The notes beneath the pieces were generated by a model. The model ran no database searches. It saw only the letters and a program-made list of their open reading frames with translations, and was not told the origin of the DNA. Below are positions 1 through 55,344 of a stretch of DNA of 58,592 nucleotides, piece by piece. Position 1 is the stretch's first letter. Every line of letters begins with the position of its first letter. The translations under genes and the position numbers were made by a program. Origin of the DNA: Planctomycetes bacterium GWF2_41_51 (GTDB taxonomy: Bacteria; Planctomycetota; Phycisphaerae; Sedimentisphaerales; UBA12454); NCBI GenBank assembly GCA_001825665.1, contig MHXZ01000069.1:1-58592 (forward strand), read 5' to 3'.

Positions 1-286
1 AAAATGAACGTGATTTTTTAAAATTTTGTTCAAAAAAGTACAAATAAAAAGTTAATAAAAAAAATTATTGTCAAAAAGGCAATTTTTAGAGGTTGCCTTT
101 AGATTTAATATTCAAGGGAGCCTCTAATAATTCGAAAACCTGAGATTGCTTCGTCGTTTTTGGGCTTAAACGCCACAAAAACTCCTCGCAATGACAATTT
201 TTTAGAGGCTACCTTAAGAATTATAACAGTGTGAGGCGGGAATGTCAAAATTAGTATTCTGGGTAAATGGGAAAAGCGAGGTTTTT
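1..286. other. AT-rich non-coding region holding a palindromic repeat
   Basis: I see no plausible gene here. The stretch is strongly AT-rich at its left end and holds a palindromic repeat copy (119-210, listed separately). A shorter related segment at about 81-103 resembles the right flank of that copy at about 195-218, both reading AATTTTTAGAGG-like followed by CCTT. The region lies downstream of the minus-strand DUF3999 gene, so it would be its 3' flank. Confidence 0.5.
119..210. repeat. Palindromic dispersed repeat, copy A
   Basis: The core reads GAGATTGCTTCGTCG on the left and CTCCTCGCAATGAC on the right. It is bracketed by a 9-bp inverted repeat, AGCCTCTAA (119-127) and TTAGAGGCT (202-210). 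Two further copies of the core lie at 1606-1670 and 4125-4223. The core resembles the widespread GTCATTGCGAGGAG...GACGAAGCAATCTC type of repeat, known for example among the Rickettsia palindromic elements. It has no coding capacity for a transposase, so it would be a MITE- or REP-like passive element. Confidence 0.75.
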
Positions 287-1680
287 TTACTCCTGCCGGG
301 GCGGACCGATGGATTTGAAGGATTTTAACATGTACAAGCCAACTATTGAAACGACTGCTATAAGTGCGATTAATAGCATCGTTCTGTGCTTTTCGGTCCA
401 GGGGACTGGTTTTTGAGCCTCTTTGGCGAAAAGTGGATTATCGGTAATCATTTCGGCTATTGCCGGGGTGGTCGATACTTCGAGAGGATTACTCAACTTT
501 TGAACGATGTCATATTGCGGTTTGGAGGCGGACTGCGAACCAACGTAGAGCGATAAAGGTGAGGTACTGCCAGCTTTGCTGAAAATGAGTCTGTGCGGTA
601 TCATTTCGGCATAGGCGGAGAGAAGCTTTAAGGGACGGTCATCGTAATTTCGGATGGTGAGCCTTAGGTATCTGTATGCGGAAGAAATCGGAAGAGTCGT
701 ATTGTGATGCTCTTTGCCATCTGAAGAAACATATCGGTAAACAACAGAGCCGGTGATGTAGTTCCATGTTTCATTTACATCTTCAAATCTTTCGCGGTTG
801 TCTTCACTGTGAATTTTGACTCTTCGCTTAACGGCGTTACGGCCTTCGATGGAAACCTGCCGATAGAAAGATTGGTCGGCAAATGTTAACTGAATTTCAC
901 TGACTGGAAGATTTTTGAATCCCAAATCATATTCATAAATACTTATATTTTCTTTTTGGTCTTCAATATGGTTTGTACCTGTGATTGCAATGATTGTTCT
1001 TGGAGCGGGTTTATTTTCGCTGATGAAAGTCTGAACATCATTTATAACCGGCGCATTTTTTTCATCTGGCATTGGGTAAACGGTGATTCTTAAATAACGG
1101 TAATCGTTTGCGGGCATATCAATTTCATTGAAGCGAGAAAACTTTCTATCATCGACTGCGAAAACAAAAGCCTCATTTACAACTGTAAAGAAATTTATAT
1201 TGTCATTCGAGCCTTCGATTTTGACGGCACGCCGGAAACTGATTCCATCGGTAATTACATCGAGCGAATTCTTAATCAACTGCGAACCGAAATCCAAAGT
1301 TATAAGTGAAGCGTTTTGGGAATTTGTCGAACGGTTTATTACCGCCAGTGAAAACCTGCTTCTGCTGGTAATATCGTGCGGGCGGGCAATTATGTACGGA
1401 ACCTGCAAACCATTTGCATCTATAATTCTGATATCCGACAAATCTGTTTTGGCGATATCATATATCTGCGGAGTGATGTCGAGATTGTGATACTCGGAAG
1501 GTTCGAGAACAAATGAAATTGGCGAAACGTATTTCCAATCTTTAAGGTCTATGGCGCAAGCATCCGATAGATTATTAAGCTAAACACGACGAATAATAAT
1601 ATGTAACCCTGAGATTGCTTCGTCCTCCCGATTCGCTTGACGCTCAACGGGACTCCTCGCAATGACATTTTTGTTTTCAT
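287..1680 (-). CDS. DUF3999-family protein, start invaded by a repeat and frameshifted
   Basis: This is a beta-rich protein with one C-terminal membrane helix (reading MLLIALIAVVSIVGLYML), as in DUF3999 proteins, which commonly sit next to DUF2339 proteins as here. Its function is unknown. An ATG at 1680 overlaps the upstream stop as ATGA and opens a frame, MKTKMSLRGV..., that runs through a palindromic repeat (1606-1670) into a hydrophobic segment, ILLFVVFSLIIYRMLA, and stops at 1549. The main body is in another frame, open from about 1578 and preceded by a TAG. Adding one base near 1557 would join them as MLA-AIDLKDW, a typical signal-peptidase junction. I infer a signal peptide carrying an inserted repeat and then a one-base deletion or sequencing error. 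Without the shift, the only start in the body frame would be a TTG at 1441, lacking the N-terminus. Confidence 0.65.
1606..1670. repeat. Palindromic dispersed repeat, copy B, inside the DUF3999 5' end
   Basis: The left half CCCTGAGATTGCTTCGTC and the right half GACTCCTCGCAATGACA match copies A and C. The flanking CTCTAA inverted repeat of copies A and C is not obvious here. On the minus strand this copy is read in frame from the ATG at 1680, so it adds about 20 mostly basic and polar residues before a hydrophobic signal-like segment. Confidence 0.8.
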
Positions 1681-4028
1681 AAACGCCTCTCTGACAAATT
1701 ATCGTTCAAGACTATTTCGAAGAAGCCTTTTTTCTTTAAGAATTGATAGAGATATGAAACGCCGACGAGAGTAATGCCGGTAGCAAGGAAAGCGGCGATC
1801 CTGTAAACGCTTTTAACCGTGCCCATATCGATGATAAAGACTTTGACGAGCAAAACGCCGAATAAAGCGAGGGCAATATATCGCAGAAATGCTTTGTTAC
1901 GCCAAAAGCCGATAATCATTAAAACAGCGGCATAAAAAGCCCACATAATCGACATATACATATTTGCGAGGAAACGCCAGTTGGGGATTTGGATTTGTGA
2001 ATATTTATTTTTGGCGTGCCAGTATAAATAGATTTCTTCGCTGAGGAGCACGAACAGAACAAATATCGCACCCATCGAAAGTATATAAGCAAAAGGCTTT
2101 ATAGTTTCATCTTTGGCGGCAGATTTATTAAGCAGGAAAGCGGAAAGGAAAAGACCAATGACGAAAATTACAGCTATCGCGAAATTAATATTGGCGAAGA
2201 TTATAAATTTGCTGTAATAAACTTCCGTAAAACCGATTAACAAAATGAAAGAACCGATTACGGCAATAAATACGGCACAATACCTGCAAATCAGGCCAGT
2301 GGGACAAATGGGTCTTGCAACAAAGAGCAGAGTAAAAATTGAGCAAAGCAAAATAAGGGAATTAATAAAAATTGTCTGGGAGAACTTCTGGTTGGTCAGA
2401 TTATATTCGCAGTGCCAATACAATTCCATTGCAATCGCGACAAGCAGAATCAGATTAGCGATGGTATATAGACTTTGTGAAATGATACTTTTGACTTCGG
2501 GGGCAATCCATTTGTTTGCACGATAAAGGATATGGCACAAAGCGGCTGATGCGGCAAGGAAAAGCCAGGTGCCAAAAGCGGGATTGAAAACTAAATCGAA
2601 AGCGGCCCGGTGCAGCGGGAGTTTGTCGAGAAGGAAAGCCCAGCTTAGGAAGAAAGCAACTGCGGCGGAAATTTGCGTCCAGAAACTTCGGTATCTAAGG
2701 CCGATTATAGCCAAAACAACAGCTTCGGCAGCCCATGCCAATACGACCGCATACATTTTAAAGTATAGCGGAATTGCGATTGTCAGGAAAAAGAGGCCGG
2801 CGGCGAGAAGAACAAGGCGAAGATTAATATCATCGGGGCAGCGTCTGTTGACGATATTGAGCAAAATAAGATGAGCGATACACAGGCCGACGGCACAAAA
2901 AGCAAGTTCTGTACGATAATTGGAATAAAGGATTGTCCAGCAGAAATAAAAAGTAATTGTTGAATTTGATAAGACAAGCAGGACATCTTCTTTCTGAGCT
3001 TTTATTTTTTTTACCAAGCCATTGAACAAAGGCAGAATTAAATATATCGAAAAGAATACCGCGAGAGAGCCGAGTGCTATTGCCAATTGGCGCGGGGGCT
3101 GATTTTCGGAATAAATTTGCGAACGGAAAAATTTCTCAAACCAGCCGGCGTAGAGAATGAATGTGCCGAGGAATGCGATGACATTTACGGCACGCCATTT
3201 CCTGTAATAAGCACACAACATTGCGCCTAAGCTGAGGATTAGAACATAAGTGAAAAGAGGAACGGGAAGATTTTCGCCTGTGGAAACAAGGACAGGAGTT
3301 AAGTATCCGCCGAGGAGGGAAAGTATCGCCATCCAGATTTCATCGAGAGCGACGGCATAGAGCATAGCAGCAAGAGTTATGATTATCGCGATAACAAAAG
3401 CGGGCGGCGAGTCAATTAGTTTGTAGAAACCATAAGCGGAAAAATCAGCGGCATATAACATTGCGAAACCGAGAGCGGTAACAGCTTTTGCAACGATGCC
3501 GAAGCCTCGTTTTCTTGTTATTTCGCCTGCGGCAAGAGCAACCAGTCCCCAAAACGCGACAATGATTACCCTGCCTAAAGGCCCTACCATGTTATTATCG
3601 TAAGCATATTTCAGAAAGAAAACGGTTCCGAAGATTAAAGTGATAACGCCTAATATTAAAACCCATTTGGTGCCGATTTTCTGCTCGAGAGAAGCGGACT
3701 GAGTTTTTGCAGAGTACTTTTGAGTTTCGGCGTATATTTTGAAATCCTGTTCAATAGCGGATTCTTTAATAGGTTCGAATATCGGAGTTGGAATTGGCGG
3801 CGGTGTTTCGTGCACGACCTGGGGCTGGGGTGAGGGTTCTGTAATCGAGATTGGCTGCTGTATAATTCGGGGCTGCTGCTCAGGATGAAGAAATTCAATC
3901 ATCACATTGGATAATCTATTGACTTTTTTCAAAGCGATTATGGAAATGATGAAGCCAATTAAGCCAGATAATAAAACACAGATTATTAAAGTAATAATCA
4001 AAACAGCTACAGCAATTTCCTCATGCAT
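1677..4028 (-). CDS. DUF2339 polytopic membrane protein
   Basis: This 783-residue protein has one N-terminal membrane helix (residues 7-35), a proline-rich linker (about 60-100), and then more than twenty hydrophobic segments to the end. The segment beginning near residue 117, EQKIGTKWVLILGVITLIFG, followed by FFLKYAYDNNMVGPLGR, is the typical DUF2339 entry. The family is conserved but its biochemical role is not established. ATG at 4028 has AAAGGT upstream. The stop overlaps the DUF3999 start as ATGA, so the two genes are probably translationally coupled and act together at the inner membrane. Confidence 0.85.
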   Translation of the reverse strand: MHEEIAVAVLIITLIICVLLSGLIGFIISIIALKKVNRLSNVMIEFLHPEQQPRIIQQPISITEPSPQPQVVHETPPPIPTPIFEPIKESAIEQDFKIYAETQKYSAKTQSASLEQKIGTKWVLILGVITLIFGTVFFLKYAYDNNMVGPLGRVIIVAFWGLVALAAGEITRKRGFGIVAKAVTALGFAMLYAADFSAYGFYKLIDSPPAFVIAIIITLAAMLYAVALDEIWMAILSLLGGYLTPVLVSTGENLPVPLFTYVLILSLGAMLCAYYRKWRAVNVIAFLGTFILYAGWFEKFFRSQIYSENQPPRQLAIALGSLAVFFSIYLILPLFNGLVKKIKAQKEDVLLVLSNSTITFYFCWTILYSNYRTELAFCAVGLCIAHLILLNIVNRRCPDDINLRLVLLAAGLFFLTIAIPLYFKMYAVVLAWAAEAVVLAIIGLRYRSFWTQISAAVAFFLSWAFLLDKLPLHRAAFDLVFNPAFGTWLFLAASAALCHILYRANKWIAPEVKSIISQSLYTIANLILLVAIAMELYWHCEYNLTNQKFSQTIFINSLILLCSIFTLLFVARPICPTGLICRYCAVFIAVIGSFILLIGFTEVYYSKFIIFANINFAIAVIFVIGLFLSAFLLNKSAAKDETIKPFAYILSMGAIFVLFVLLSEEIYLYWHAKNKYSQIQIPNWRFLANMYMSIMWAFYAAVLMIIGFWRNKAFLRYIALALFGVLLVKVFIIDMGTVKSVYRIAAFLATGITLVGVSYLYQFLKKKGFFEIVLNDNLSERRL

Positions 4029-4124
4029 TTTTTACCTTTCGAAAGAAAAGCGAACGGAAATGTAAACGGATTGTACTCCCCCATCGTAAAAGCATTTTGT
4101 CATCCTGACTTTGCATAAATTCAT

Positions 4125-4223
4125 CCTATAATTAAGCGGTCTCTAAAGTATAAACCAGAGATTGCTTCGGTCGCCTGTAACGACTTCCTCGCAATAACAT
4201 TTTAGAGCCTGCATAATTATAGG
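4125..4223. repeat. Palindromic dispersed repeat, copy C, with terminal inverted repeat
   Basis: The core is AGAGATTGCTTCGG...CTTCCTCGCAATAACA. A perfect 10-bp inverted repeat, CCTATAATTA (4125-4134) and TAATTATAGG (4214-4223), brackets it, and an inner CTCTAAA/TTTAGAG pair repeats the arrangement of copy A. It lies between the aldo/keto reductase end and the DUF2339 start. No coding capacity is seen. Confidence 0.75.
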
Positions 4224-4252
4224 AATAAAGAAAAGAAGCCGCAATAGAAAAT

Positions 4253-5188
4253 TTAGACGGAAACCAATTCACGAATTTTTCGCGGTTCTTCACCAAGCCA
4301 TTGCGGATTTTGCGCAGTAGAATCGAAAATCGAAGATGTTTTATATGGTTCGAATTTGCCTGTAGAACCCGCATCTGCGGTTTTGGCAAGCAAATCGCTA
4401 AGTTCCTGTTCGCTTAAAGGATAATACGTGGTTACCGCTTCCAAAGCCTGGTTGAGTATTTCCAAACTGTCGATTCCGGTAATCACAACTGAAGTCGGCA
4501 GATTGAGAGCATAATGTATACATTCAATCGCAGTTACAGTTTTTGATTTCAGCAGAACACCATCAGCCAAACATTTCATTCCAAGTACGCCGATGTTCCT
4601 CATCACAAGCCGGGGCAGAACTAAATTAGCGAAACTCCGAAAATGCGCATCCATTAGATTCAGAGGCAACTGGACTGTATCGAATTTAAAGCCAAATCTT
4701 TCCGCAACTTCCAACATATACAAATGCACATGCGGGTCTTTGTGGCCTGTGAAACCTATGTAACGGATTTTTCCGGCATCGCGTGCCCTTATCAAAGCCT
4801 CATTTGCGCCATCAGTGTCGAAAATGCGGTCAGGATCTTCATAACGAATTATTTCATGGTGCTGCACCAGGTCGATATGGTCCACATTGAGGCGTTTAAG
4901 AGAGTCCTCTAATTGCTTCGAGGCCTGGTCTTTTGAGCGGCCATCGACTTTAGTCATAACAAACGCCTTTTGGCGATAACCATCTCTCAAAGCTTTTCCC
5001 AGCCGCAACTCGCTTTGCCCATTGCTGTAATCCCAACTGTTGTCCATAAATGTGATGCCATTATCGATGGCTGTACGTATAATGCGAATCGCGAGGCGTT
5101 CATCGACGTTCTTTCGGCTTAAATGAGCACCACCGATGCCGATGGCGGATACTTTTTGGCCTGTGCTTCCGAGTGTTCTATAAATCAT
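4253..5188 (-). CDS. Aldo/keto reductase
   Basis: This is a 311-residue (alpha/beta)8-barrel oxidoreductase expected to reduce carbonyl compounds with NADPH in the cytoplasm. The start MIYRTLGSTGQKVSAIGIGG is the standard AKR N-terminus. The catalytic tetrad is visible as D49 and Y54 in FMDNSWDYSNG, K80 in MTKVDGRS and His110/111 in QHHE. ATG at 5188 is preceded by AAAGGAG. It is the last gene of a short minus-strand operon after an azoreductase and a GH15 enzyme, with 20 nt between it and the GH15 gene. The substrate cannot be told from the sequence. Confidence 0.92.
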   Translation of the reverse strand: MIYRTLGSTGQKVSAIGIGGAHLSRKNVDERLAIRIIRTAIDNGITFMDNSWDYSNGQSELRLGKALRDGYRQKAFVMTKVDGRSKDQASKQLEDSLKRLNVDHIDLVQHHEIIRYEDPDRIFDTDGANEALIRARDAGKIRYIGFTGHKDPHVHLYMLEVAERFGFKFDTVQLPLNLMDAHFRSFANLVLPRLVMRNIGVLGMKCLADGVLLKSKTVTAIECIHYALNLPTSVVITGIDSLEILNQALEAVTTYYPLSEQELSDLLAKTADAGSTGKFEPYKTSSIFDSTAQNPQWLGEEPRKIRELVSV

Positions 5189-52242: not shown

Positions 52243-55200
52243 CTATTCCTTTGACTCACCATTTTCGCCAAGTAAATTCCGCAATTCCTCAATAATTTTT
52301 CGAATTCGCAGGGCAACATCATTCCATGCACTATCACGATCAGGCCAAAGCTTGACCGCTTTACCATCCTTAGGCAATGCTTGAAGTTTACCAAAAATCG
52401 CAGAATGCCAATCACAATCACGAATTATTACTGGAACAACAACCGCCTCTTTATTTTCATGTTTTTGCATTGCATTATTCATTTCAACATCGTAACAATA
52501 ATCAGAGGCAACAAAATCTGCACTAACCAGCAGCAAAATGATTTCCGCATTTTTTAGATTCTCATCTATTTTCTTGTCCCACTCCTCGCCACCGAGAATT
52601 TTCCTGTCGTGCCAGGAAGAAATGTGACCCTGACGTTGCAATAGTTTAAGATGTGTCTCTAACTCATCACGCAATGCTTCGTCTTTATGAGAATAACTGT
52701 AAAATAACCTAAATGCTTTTTGTTGTTTTCCTCGTTCTTCTATTCCGGATTTATGGCGAACATCAGGCAAATCCACCCCATTAAGAAGATCAGAAACACT
52801 TACTTTCACCGTTTTGCCATCGGCCCTAACAAAAATTTCTTTGATGCCGTCTTTTTCGAAACCCGTCAGGTCGTCATAATTCATAGGAACATCGGGATAT
52901 TCCGGTATAGGAACAATGCCTTTTACTTCTAATGTTGGAATATCAGAATGAATTCTCTCGAAGTCACTGCGAATCACTGCTAATAACCGTCGCCTTCCAT
53001 CTGGATCATCACCGCGAACACGAATTTTTACATGTCTTTCAGCGGCGTCCGCCTTAACCAAAGCCTTACAACCTTCCCATTGGAGTATTACCCCGCTGCG
53101 CCATCGTGGTTGATTATGACTCAACGGATGTGTACGTACGATAAATTGTGGCAGCAATCCTTCAGGCAATACATCATAATGGTATTCGAAATTTAGACAA
53201 TTCTTAGGTTCGAATTCTTTTTTCAGATCAGGCTCTTCTTTGCCTAATAGTTCAGGTATTAAGTAACGATGTTGACCGTCAGGAAATGCAAAGCAAAGCC
53301 GAAATTTACGCATCAGCTCCATAATAAATTCATGTTTTTCGGGGGGATATTCATCAAGAGGTAAAAATCTCGCTATATCTGTGAGTTTCAAAATTCCTTT
53401 GTCATCGGCCAATTGACCTGCGTTCAGCAAAAGATAAATCCCTTGAGTTACCCATCGTGGATTGAGTACACTTGTGTCTCTTAGTCGCGGGTCTTCCTTG
53501 TAATTAAGAGCTATCCCTAAGCAGTGCAGAAAACCGGCCAATTCCTCTTGTGCCTTTGAGTCTATTTCTTTATTTTCTTGACATATTTTCCGAAACCGCT
53601 CAAAGCTTAAATAATTTTCTTTCATCTCTGAAAGTTTATCCTTTATGGCAAACCATGCCGAAGGAAAATCTGCTTTAACGCTTTTCATTTCGCCAAGTGT
53701 TTTTGCTATCTCTTTGCGCAAAATATCAAAACCTAATCCCGTTTTGCAGTCAGTTTTAATAAAACCGCAAATTTGCGGATACTTGGCACGCAGTCCTCTG
53801 TAATTTAGTTCAAATGGATGTTGTTCTGTTTTATTAAGTACTACGATAATCGGCGAATCGCCTGCAAAACTTTCAATAAGTTTAAGCCAATATTCTGCAT
53901 CATAATCTTCCCCGCCTTCACGTCCATTTAATGCTAACAGATACAAACTTCGCTGGGTTAAGAAAAATTGATGAGTTGCGTGCATTATTTCCTGTCCCCC
54001 GAAGTCCCAGATATTTAACCGAATTTCATTTTTTCCTGCTTGAACTTTCCAGTCGCTGATTTGAATACCTTCTGTCTTGCTCGTATCTTTGAAGACATTA
54101 TAGACGAGCTGATTCACAATACATGTTTTCCCAACCTCTCCTCGCCCTACAAGAATAACTTTGGCTTCATTAAGCGGCCGTCTTCCCCAGCGGGTCCGAA
54201 AATAATAATCTAATATCCGGCTAGGCTCGACTGCTTTTTCAATTGCGGTCAAACTTTTTAATGGGTCCGGTCCTAACAATTCTGTCGGAATCCCAAGTTC
54301 AGGATTATGGTGCAATAATAATTTATTTAGAGTAGGAATTTGCTTGAGCGAATCAGGTAATAATGTTAGTTTATTATTCCTAAGATCAAGCCACGTCAGA
54401 TTTTTAAGTTCTCCTATATTTGCCGGTAGTGAGATTAATTGATTATAATTAAGATAAAGATGTTTTAAATTTTTAAGCTTCCCTACTTCAGCCGGAAGTG
54501 AGGTTAATTGATTTTCATTAAGACGAATCTCAGTTAGATTTTTAAGTTCACCTATTTCTGCTGGCACTGAGGATAGCTGGTTGGTATTAAGTAAAAGCTT
54601 ACTTAAGTTCAAGAGATTTCCAATTTCTGCAGGTAGTTTGGTAATTTGATTATTGGAAAGTTCGAGATATGACAGATTTTTCAATCGTCCTATTTCCTGT
54701 GGAACACATATTAGCCTGTTTTCTCTCAAATAAAGCCTATTTAGATTTATCAATTGAAATATCTCAACAGGAAAGGAGACAAGATTGCTTTCAAATAGAT
54801 GAAGTACTTGCAGTTTGTGTAATTCTTGAATTGGTGAGAAAGAATCCAGATTGTTTCTATCGATTGCTAATTCTTTTAGATTCTTTAAACAAGACAGTTC
54901 TTCTGGAAGATTTGTTAATTGGTTTGGACCAATATATAAGAACTCTAAATTTATCAATTGCCCTATTTTATTAGAGAATACTTCAAGGTGATTTTCATAG
55001 ATCCTAAGGTCAACCAAATTCACTAGCTCCCAAAATTCTATAGGGAGCGATATCAATTTATTAGTATTTACACGTAGTCTTTGTAGGTTTTTTAAAGCAC
55101 CTATCTCTGCCGGGAGAGTGGTTAATTCATTTTTCGCAAGATTAAGCTCCTCCAAATTTGTAAGTTTTCCTATTTCTGCAGGAAGCGAGGTTAATTTATT

Positions 55201-55344
55201 ATCGAAAAGATTAAGTTTTTCCAGATTTGTAAGTTTCCCAATTTCTGCAGGTAGTTCTTTAATATTACTGTCGGATAAGTTTAATTCTTTCGCTTCTTCG
55301 TTGGCTGCTTTTTCTATAACTGCTAATAATTCTTTCTCATCCAT
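52243..55344 (-). CDS. LRR-Roc-COR-TIR protein (Roco family)
   Basis: This 1033-residue protein has about 14 leucine-rich repeats (residues 20-350, LPAEIGKLTNLEKLNL pattern), a Roc GTPase domain (about 393-550: P-loop GRGEVGKT 400-407, DFGGQE 447-452, NKTE 504-507), a COR dimer region (about 555-830), and a C-terminal TIR domain (876-1020) beginning FRLFYSYSHKDEALRDELE. The segment SDYCYDVEM (E954) fits the catalytic glutamate of NAD+-cleaving TIRs. GAGGA lies 6 nt before ATG 55344. I infer a sensor-switch-effector protein, possibly in phage defence. It stands alone between non-coding stretches, as for an acquired gene. Confidence 0.9.
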   Translation of the reverse strand: MDEKELLAVIEKAANEEAKELNLSDSNIKELPAEIGKLTNLEKLNLFDNKLTSLPAEIGKLTNLEELNLAKNELTTLPAEIGALKNLQRLRVNTNKLISLPIEFWELVNLVDLRIYENHLEVFSNKIGQLINLEFLYIGPNQLTNLPEELSCLKNLKELAIDRNNLDSFSPIQELHKLQVLHLFESNLVSFPVEIFQLINLNRLYLRENRLICVPQEIGRLKNLSYLELSNNQITKLPAEIGNLLNLSKLLLNTNQLSSVPAEIGELKNLTEIRLNENQLTSLPAEVGKLKNLKHLYLNYNQLISLPANIGELKNLTWLDLRNNKLTLLPDSLKQIPTLNKLLLHHNPELGIPTELLGPDPLKSLTAIEKAVEPSRILDYYFRTRWGRRPLNEAKVILVGRGEVGKTCIVNQLVYNVFKDTSKTEGIQISDWKVQAGKNEIRLNIWDFGGQEIMHATHQFFLTQRSLYLLALNGREGGEDYDAEYWLKLIESFAGDSPIIVVLNKTEQHPFELNYRGLRAKYPQICGFIKTDCKTGLGFDILRKEIAKTLGEMKSVKADFPSAWFAIKDKLSEMKENYLSFERFRKICQENKEIDSKAQEELAGFLHCLGIALNYKEDPRLRDTSVLNPRWVTQGIYLLLNAGQLADDKGILKLTDIARFLPLDEYPPEKHEFIMELMRKFRLCFAFPDGQHRYLIPELLGKEEPDLKKEFEPKNCLNFEYHYDVLPEGLLPQFIVRTHPLSHNQPRWRSGVILQWEGCKALVKADAAERHVKIRVRGDDPDGRRRLLAVIRSDFERIHSDIPTLEVKGIVPIPEYPDVPMNYDDLTGFEKDGIKEIFVRADGKTVKVSVSDLLNGVDLPDVRHKSGIEERGKQQKAFRLFYSYSHKDEALRDELETHLKLLQRQGHISSWHDRKILGGEEWDKKIDENLKNAEIILLLVSADFVASDYCYDVEMNNAMQKHENKEAVVVPVIIRDCDWHSAIFGKLQALPKDGKAVKLWPDRDSAWNDVALRIRKIIEELRNLLGENGESKE

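Follow-up and report, generated by a model that had tools for sequence, protein, structure and literature searches.

A family palindromic repeat lies in frame in the signal-peptide region of a planctomycete DUF3999 gene and recurs in other export signals of the genus

Mobile palindromes that insert in frame into genes are, to our knowledge, known mainly from Rickettsia. The Rickettsia palindromic elements (RPEs) are described as palindromes of ~105–146 bp with open frames, found in frame in unrelated protein genes (PMC2229807, PMC10969869). In Yersinia, YPO1552 is reported to have a predicted signal peptide that is in part made of a repeat (PMC2759123). A survey of GTAG/CGTC-tagged REPs describes small palindromes from many phyla including the Planctomycetes, some of them intragenic; the intragenic ones often lie in DNA repair genes, at positions that vary along the gene (PMC3733652).

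The window analysed here is the entire contig C69, 58,592 nucleotides long, of the genome of Planctomycetes bacterium GWF2_41_51 (designated G000; 4.83 Mb in 138 contigs). Near one end it carries three copies of a palindromic repeat, around and within a pair of genes encoding a DUF2339 membrane protein and a DUF3999 protein:

114–217, plus strand: copy A of the repeat, full-length and intergenic, with outer arms TTAAGG..CCTTAA; 97% match over positions 3–105 of a query consensus partly drawn from this copy
287–1579, minus strand: main DUF3999 frame, 430 codons, open but without a start
1549–1608, minus strand: hydrophobic part of the signal peptide as read in the ATG frame, closed by TAG 1551–1549
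1568–1572, minus strand: site at which the orthologue has one base more, seen as an alignment gap following ATC
1594–1672, read on the minus strand: recognisable arms of copy B, with its core at 1611–1666; inner hairpin of the CCCGATTCGCTT..GCTCAACGGG subfamily
1677–4028, minus strand: DUF2339 gene, intact, upstream partner of DUF3999
1678–1680, minus strand: ATG, the likeliest start codon of DUF3999, with GAGAGG upstream
4152–4212, plus strand: copy C, degenerate and intergenic, upstream of DUF2339

The likeliest start overlaps the DUF2339 stop (TGA 1679–1677), and a homologous ATG is found between the same two neighbours, in the same order, in the nearest orthologue. The frame opened by ATG 1680 (MKTKMSLRGVPLSVKRIGRTKQSQGYILLFVVFSLIIYRMLAP) passes through copy B and a hydrophobic stretch before it stops at TAG 1551–1549, one base out of phase with the DUF3999 frame. 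A preliminary description made from the letters alone had pointed to the ATGA overlap at 1680–1677, to the course of this frame and to a DUF3999 frame one base away, and all three are present in the sequence. The DUF3999 frame is open from 1579 with no usable start. The first ATG, GTG or TTG of the DUF3999 frame is TTG 1441; a start there is ruled out, as it would cut the domain, Pfam DUF3999 positions 7–57 matching window 1525–1373 in a profile search. The mature protein would begin at approximately IDLKDWKY, at 1552. As sequenced, then, the DUF3999 gene of the window is broken by one base and has no readable start.

Copy B is a member of a dispersed repeat family, and chance is excluded: with at most one mismatch allowed, a 12-base seed occurs at 87 places in the G000 genome and its backwards control at 4, and for exact matches to the two-armed pattern the counts are 20 and none. 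The full element is ~105 bases long and is built as TTAAGGNAGCCTCTAA..GAGATTGCTTCG..CGCAATGAC..TTAGAGGCTNCCTTAA, and is divided into subfamilies by its variable inner hairpin. Two consensus forms of 105–106 bases fold with −37.7 and −38.1 kcal/mol (−22.1 for the form found in the nearest DUF3999 orthologue), and one strand of the consensus forms has two open frames in most cases and never fewer than one. Matches to the typed consensus number 26 in G000, 34 in G005, 23 in G001, 10 in G002, 4 in G006, 1 in G003 and 0 in G004. As in a MITE, the outer arms TTAAGGNAGCCTCTAA..TTAGAGGCTNCCTTAA are terminal inverted repeats, paired in the consensus fold, and the element has no transposase gene. TTAA is found at both ends of the copy in the nearest orthologue and may be a target-site duplication; no close element-free orthologue of that locus turned up, and its empty form is a reconstruction. 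The family is probably a non-autonomous mobile element. No known structured RNA matched window 1–4300 up to an E-value of 1 in Rfam.

Several further observations concern the genomic surroundings of the family. The window itself starts with a partial right arm of the element (1–105), and in contigs C74, C84 and C95 an element arm lies 68–98 bases from the contig start, suggesting that the repeat breaks assembly at contig starts. At the ends of contigs C12 and C78 (L001 and L025), copies of different subfamilies share a common downstream sequence near the contig ends. The genome also has seven matches to Y1_Tnp (RAYT-like) transposases, one of which (C102:80491) lies ~1.5 kb from an element copy. 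Far from the gene pair, window 54407–55275 holds an array of repeats of 69 bases (23 residues) that resemble leucine-rich repeats.

The nearest DUF3999 orthologue, L041, is 79% identical and comes from the same genus (contig G005:C225; nearest named record Planctomycetota bacterium UR.bin163). It is the sole relative at tblastn level in a scan of the genome_contigs collection, one of 33 candidate stretches, and the low stated coverage of its contig (2.3) calls for caution. In L041, DUF2339 and DUF3999 follow one another in the same order and DUF3999 begins MKKLVLRQFLKLSLREVPNGICRAGTTKQSLVFKLLQVPLIFILIIASNAFAIDLKDWKY, its frame unbroken. Aligned with each other, the two genes carry a family repeat at the same position, and the frame survives two further gaps, one of 21 and one of 6 bases. 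Over its full length, the copy in the L041 gene matches the typed consensus at 79% (G005:C225:1153–1258). Removal of 102 bases (34 codons) from L041, with one TTAA kept, yields MKKLVLIFILIIASNAFA-IDLKDWKY, an ordinary signal peptide. DUF3999 is present in 6 of 59 relatives searched, and in four from other families of the order (G022, G031, G043 and G051) the signal peptides are short and element-free. These orthologues, one with the repeat in the same place and four distant ones that lack it, bear out the earlier proposal that the repeat adds a basic, in-frame extension to this signal peptide.

Whilst the two copies occupy the same place, they are of different subfamilies. In its core, copy B shares 95% identity with two other copies of G000 but only 67% with the copy in L041, whose own core shares 96% with two other copies of G005; dS between the two genomes is ~0.9–1.3 for DUF3999 and DUF2339. 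Cores so unlike at one place in one gene imply either two insertions or the exchange of the centre by gene conversion. We regard as evenly balanced the possibility of one old insertion whose centre was later exchanged with other copies: the gene and the place are the same, the arms are alike, the flanks can be aligned and each core resembles copies in its own genome, but a favoured place hit twice independently would leave the same picture, and two Xanthomonas species carry different repeats at roughly one recB site, as the tagged-repeat survey reports (PMC3733652).

The alignment with L041 also bears on the broken frame. The preliminary description had a base missing near 1557; that one base is missing after the element stands, but the position does not, for although the frame would allow 1557 the alignment gives 1568–1570, ~12 bases away, a placement that rests on two aligned sequences and so does not fix the exact base. 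Measured against L041, dN/dS is 0.105 for DUF3999 (274 codons) and 0.103 for DUF2339 (780 codons). Constraint in DUF3999 therefore equals that in its intact neighbour, so that the shift is either very recent or an artefact. The chances are about equal for and against a real shift, which would make DUF3999 a young pseudogene, perhaps with its partner DUF2339 working alone. The want of any start before TTG 1441, inside the domain, is consistent with this, as are the want of a slippery heptamer and the weaker constraint on the n-region in the ATG frame (dN/dS 0.58 over 36 codons); against it, the 430 codons carry no other lesion and are under strong constraint, though a very recent loss would leave no trace. 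Almost as plausible is an assembly or sequencing error in a gene that is in reality intact, like its orthologue. The same dN/dS values and the otherwise open 430 codons argue for an error, and palindromes can hinder sequencing. The site is not a homopolymer, however, and family arms within ~100 bases of some contig starts suggest short-read graph assembly, in which single-base deletions outside homopolymers are uncommon. A programmed frameshift was rejected, no X XXY YYZ heptamer being visible by eye between the two stops.

DUF3999 is not the only secreted protein affected. A census of G000 recovered 86 of the 87 seed places in examined loci, and 41 of these, having a second arm, were counted as strict copies. 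Open frames of at least 150 codons cross eight of the 41: five in signal-peptide n-regions, one in a pilin-like leader (ambiguous) and two in leader regions, where the element precedes the start. The window DUF3999 is a sixth signal-peptide case in G000, left out of the five since its frame is broken. With signal peptides judged by eye and by the hydropathy maximum, the eight are:

L026: Phenol_MetA_deg-family protein, element in the signal-peptide n-region
L027: TPR-like protein, element in the signal-peptide n-region
L119/L167: protein without a name, element in the signal-peptide n-region
L015: presumably a PHP-like protein, from its HTHTxxSDG motif; element in the signal-peptide n-region, acidic frame used
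L191: lipoprotein with a TGC lipobox, element in the signal-peptide n-region
L202 (G000:C133:11663–14674, 929–1576, minus strand): pilin-like protein MTKRTRIGVTLIELMVAM
L178 (G000:C67): Tat-signal protein, copy directly upstream of the start, leader region
L157 (G000:C138): purE-like, copy directly upstream of the start, leader region

The start codon of L202 may come from the CGCAATGAC end of the element. In G005, where most though not all of the 34 consensus matches were examined, there are three cases: DUF3999, a secretin (L087) and a GH30 glycosidase (L109). No signal-peptide case was seen in the examined loci of G001, G002, G003 and G006.

Comparison with element-free orthologues supports an in-frame insertion in five further genes, those for the secretin, the PHP-like protein, the lipoprotein, the TPR-like protein and L119, and two more genes are likely to carry one. 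The secretin of G005 reads MILKAKHNVT[element]NILMALIAV, and its orthologues, free of the element, read MILKVKHNFYKAAM in G000, MIFKTKHNFYKLAI in G001 and MINNIRHFNKTAI in G002. L119 (MESKKAF[element]TILAAV) has the G005 orthologue MERKKELFKSYKFKILAAV, L027 (MEIINNKKLR[element]) the G002 orthologue MEIKNIKFEI, and L191 (MEKIKMKTEK[element]FLFTGC) the orthologues MEKIKMKANK..LLLAGC in G009 and MENIKMKNGK..FLFAGC in G002. The orthologues of L015 in G001, G002 and G009 have short signal peptides; L026 has no orthologue among the 59 genomes. From element-free to element-bearing form, the distance between the start and a shared motif goes from 34–37 to 70 codons in the secretin, from 15 to 31 in L119, from 33 to 52 in L027, from 19–25 to 50 in L015 and from 21–22 to 61 in L191. 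In four genes the residues before the element are recognisable as the ancestral first residues (MILKxKHN, MESKK/MERKK, MEIxN and MEKIKMK).

The family extends beyond the genus. Among 392 genomes of the phylum, 36, the window genome included, contain the two-armed core pattern, and the control gave none among the matches listed. A sample from outside the genus comprised 110 loci with 127 copies (30 loci given by the pattern search and 80 chosen from listed places, of which many more exist). Frames of at least 150 codons cross 12 of the 127, one of them (L272) in frame inside a gene, the others being leaders, gene ends or spurious frames. None of the 127 sampled copies from other planctomycete genera and families lies in a signal peptide, and a spread of the signal-peptide niche to other families of the phylum was rejected on this count. 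Fisher's test gives 0.0007 for 5 of 41 against 0 of 127, and 0.00016 with 6 of 41; the test is post hoc and a guide only, and most copies from outside the genus are shorter hairpins that belong to other subfamilies. L272 (G194:C19:5804–8237), from another planctomycete family, has a short core copy in frame midway along a frame of 445 codons; AHYDSKSQ-like peptidase sequence follows, as does a second in-frame arm remnant (LLRFARNDQ). This locus is evidence that coding copies survive beyond signals outside the genus. In L275, L293 and L302, among them an asd-like gene, copies lie directly upstream of start codons, where the hairpin would be in the mRNA leader.

Taken together, these findings make it likely, in our judgement, that copy B is an in-frame element of the family tolerated in the n-region of DUF3999, with one base later lost or miscalled. 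Placed between the start codon and the hydrophobic core, it would lengthen the signal peptide by a basic stretch, to be removed together with the rest of the signal peptide. Of the six frames of the element core, three should encode a positively charged peptide, and these three include the two most used. Open core translations have a mean net charge of +1.9 in the VIAR frame, +2.8 in the SLRG frame and −1.6 in the CHCE frame, and in the three frames of the commonest orientation 33, 32 and 27 of the 41 core copies are free of stops. An n-region needs only positive charge and is then discarded, so the insertion would be tolerated because the element encodes a basic peptide and the n-region is cleaved off; export should still work with a longer basic n-region, given that the hydrophobic core behind it is intact. 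This argument follows from established signal-peptide biology. Copies translated, exported and cleaved in this manner would be neutral, whereas selection would clear copies from mature parts of proteins; with in-frame insertions elsewhere mostly lost, signal peptides would therefore collect them. With the insertion already in place, the window genome would then have lost one base just after the element, unless that base was miscalled.

Two other readings of the pattern are given less weight. It is improbable that n-regions are a genome-wide landing niche in which the element has inserted many times independently, at one gene even with different subfamilies, to give signal peptides of 30–65 residues, and that the hairpin behind the start codon alters translation or export, the element acting as a portable regulator besides being tolerated. 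There is also a small chance that the N-terminal copies are extragenic leader insertions, forming mRNA hairpins, with translation starting downstream and the open frame incidental. The 2013 survey of tagged repeats cautions that this holds for many repeats at NH2 termini (PMC3733652). L178 and L157 in G000, and L275, L293 and L302 outside the genus, look so; an ATG lies in or after the element in L087 and L119, and a start inside or after it is also possible for L109 from sequence alone. On the other side, several genes begin, ahead of the element, with residues that match the start of their element-free orthologues, so that these are not merely leader insertions; the starts of L026, L027 and DUF3999 overlap the end of the upstream gene; and in L041 and L026 no ATG, GTG or TTG after the element leaves a usable signal peptide.

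If tolerated insertion is the correct reading, the genus speaks to an open issue for mobile palindromes, namely which protein regions absorb them: the pattern here points to the positively charged, disposable start of the export signal. It offers a testable rule, relating the frame and charge of an element to the position in which it is tolerated, and natural experiments on how long a signal-peptide n-region may grow. Annotators should be aware that such copies may lie behind an unusually long signal peptide, or behind a start that is missing at an operon junction. We found no report of recurrent insertion in signal peptides in a literature search that left most subscription journals outside its reach, and queries with sequence words of the element returned only titles on unrelated subjects. 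That one genus uses signal-peptide n-regions repeatedly, as documented by element-free orthologues, appears to be new.

How, then, does the element compare with those described? Like the GTAG/CGTC-tagged REPs associated with RAYTs, its core has CGTC beside the inner hairpin, but by eye it does not follow the rules for CGTC-tagged REPs (a stem of 8–9 bp, AT in the first positions and a CCA-like tail), and the Y1_Tnp matches of G000 make a RAYT link a candidate only. In the Yersinia YPAL/RU-2 and ERIC/RU-1 fusions, a putative new exported protein, in one main case, takes its start from the repeat, whereas the element of this genus extends existing signal peptides, in several genes with element-free orthologues. 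Another close system is that of the RPEs, with which the Wolbachia palindromic elements may be grouped. RPEs and the present element are both palindromes of ~100–150 bases (105–106 in this genus) with long open frames, and both are inserted in frame in unrelated genes, with element-free orthologues here for DUF3999, the secretin, L119, L027, L015 and L191. The preliminary description had likened the repeat to RPEs; the likeness holds for in-frame insertion in unrelated genes but not for occurrence in Rickettsia, the host being a planctomycete genus of another phylum, and it is drawn from build and position rather than from sequence comparison. RPEs are described in metabolic and other conserved genes, whereas the present copies cluster in signal-peptide n-regions. 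By analogy, the element would work in this genus as the palindromic elements do in Rickettsia.
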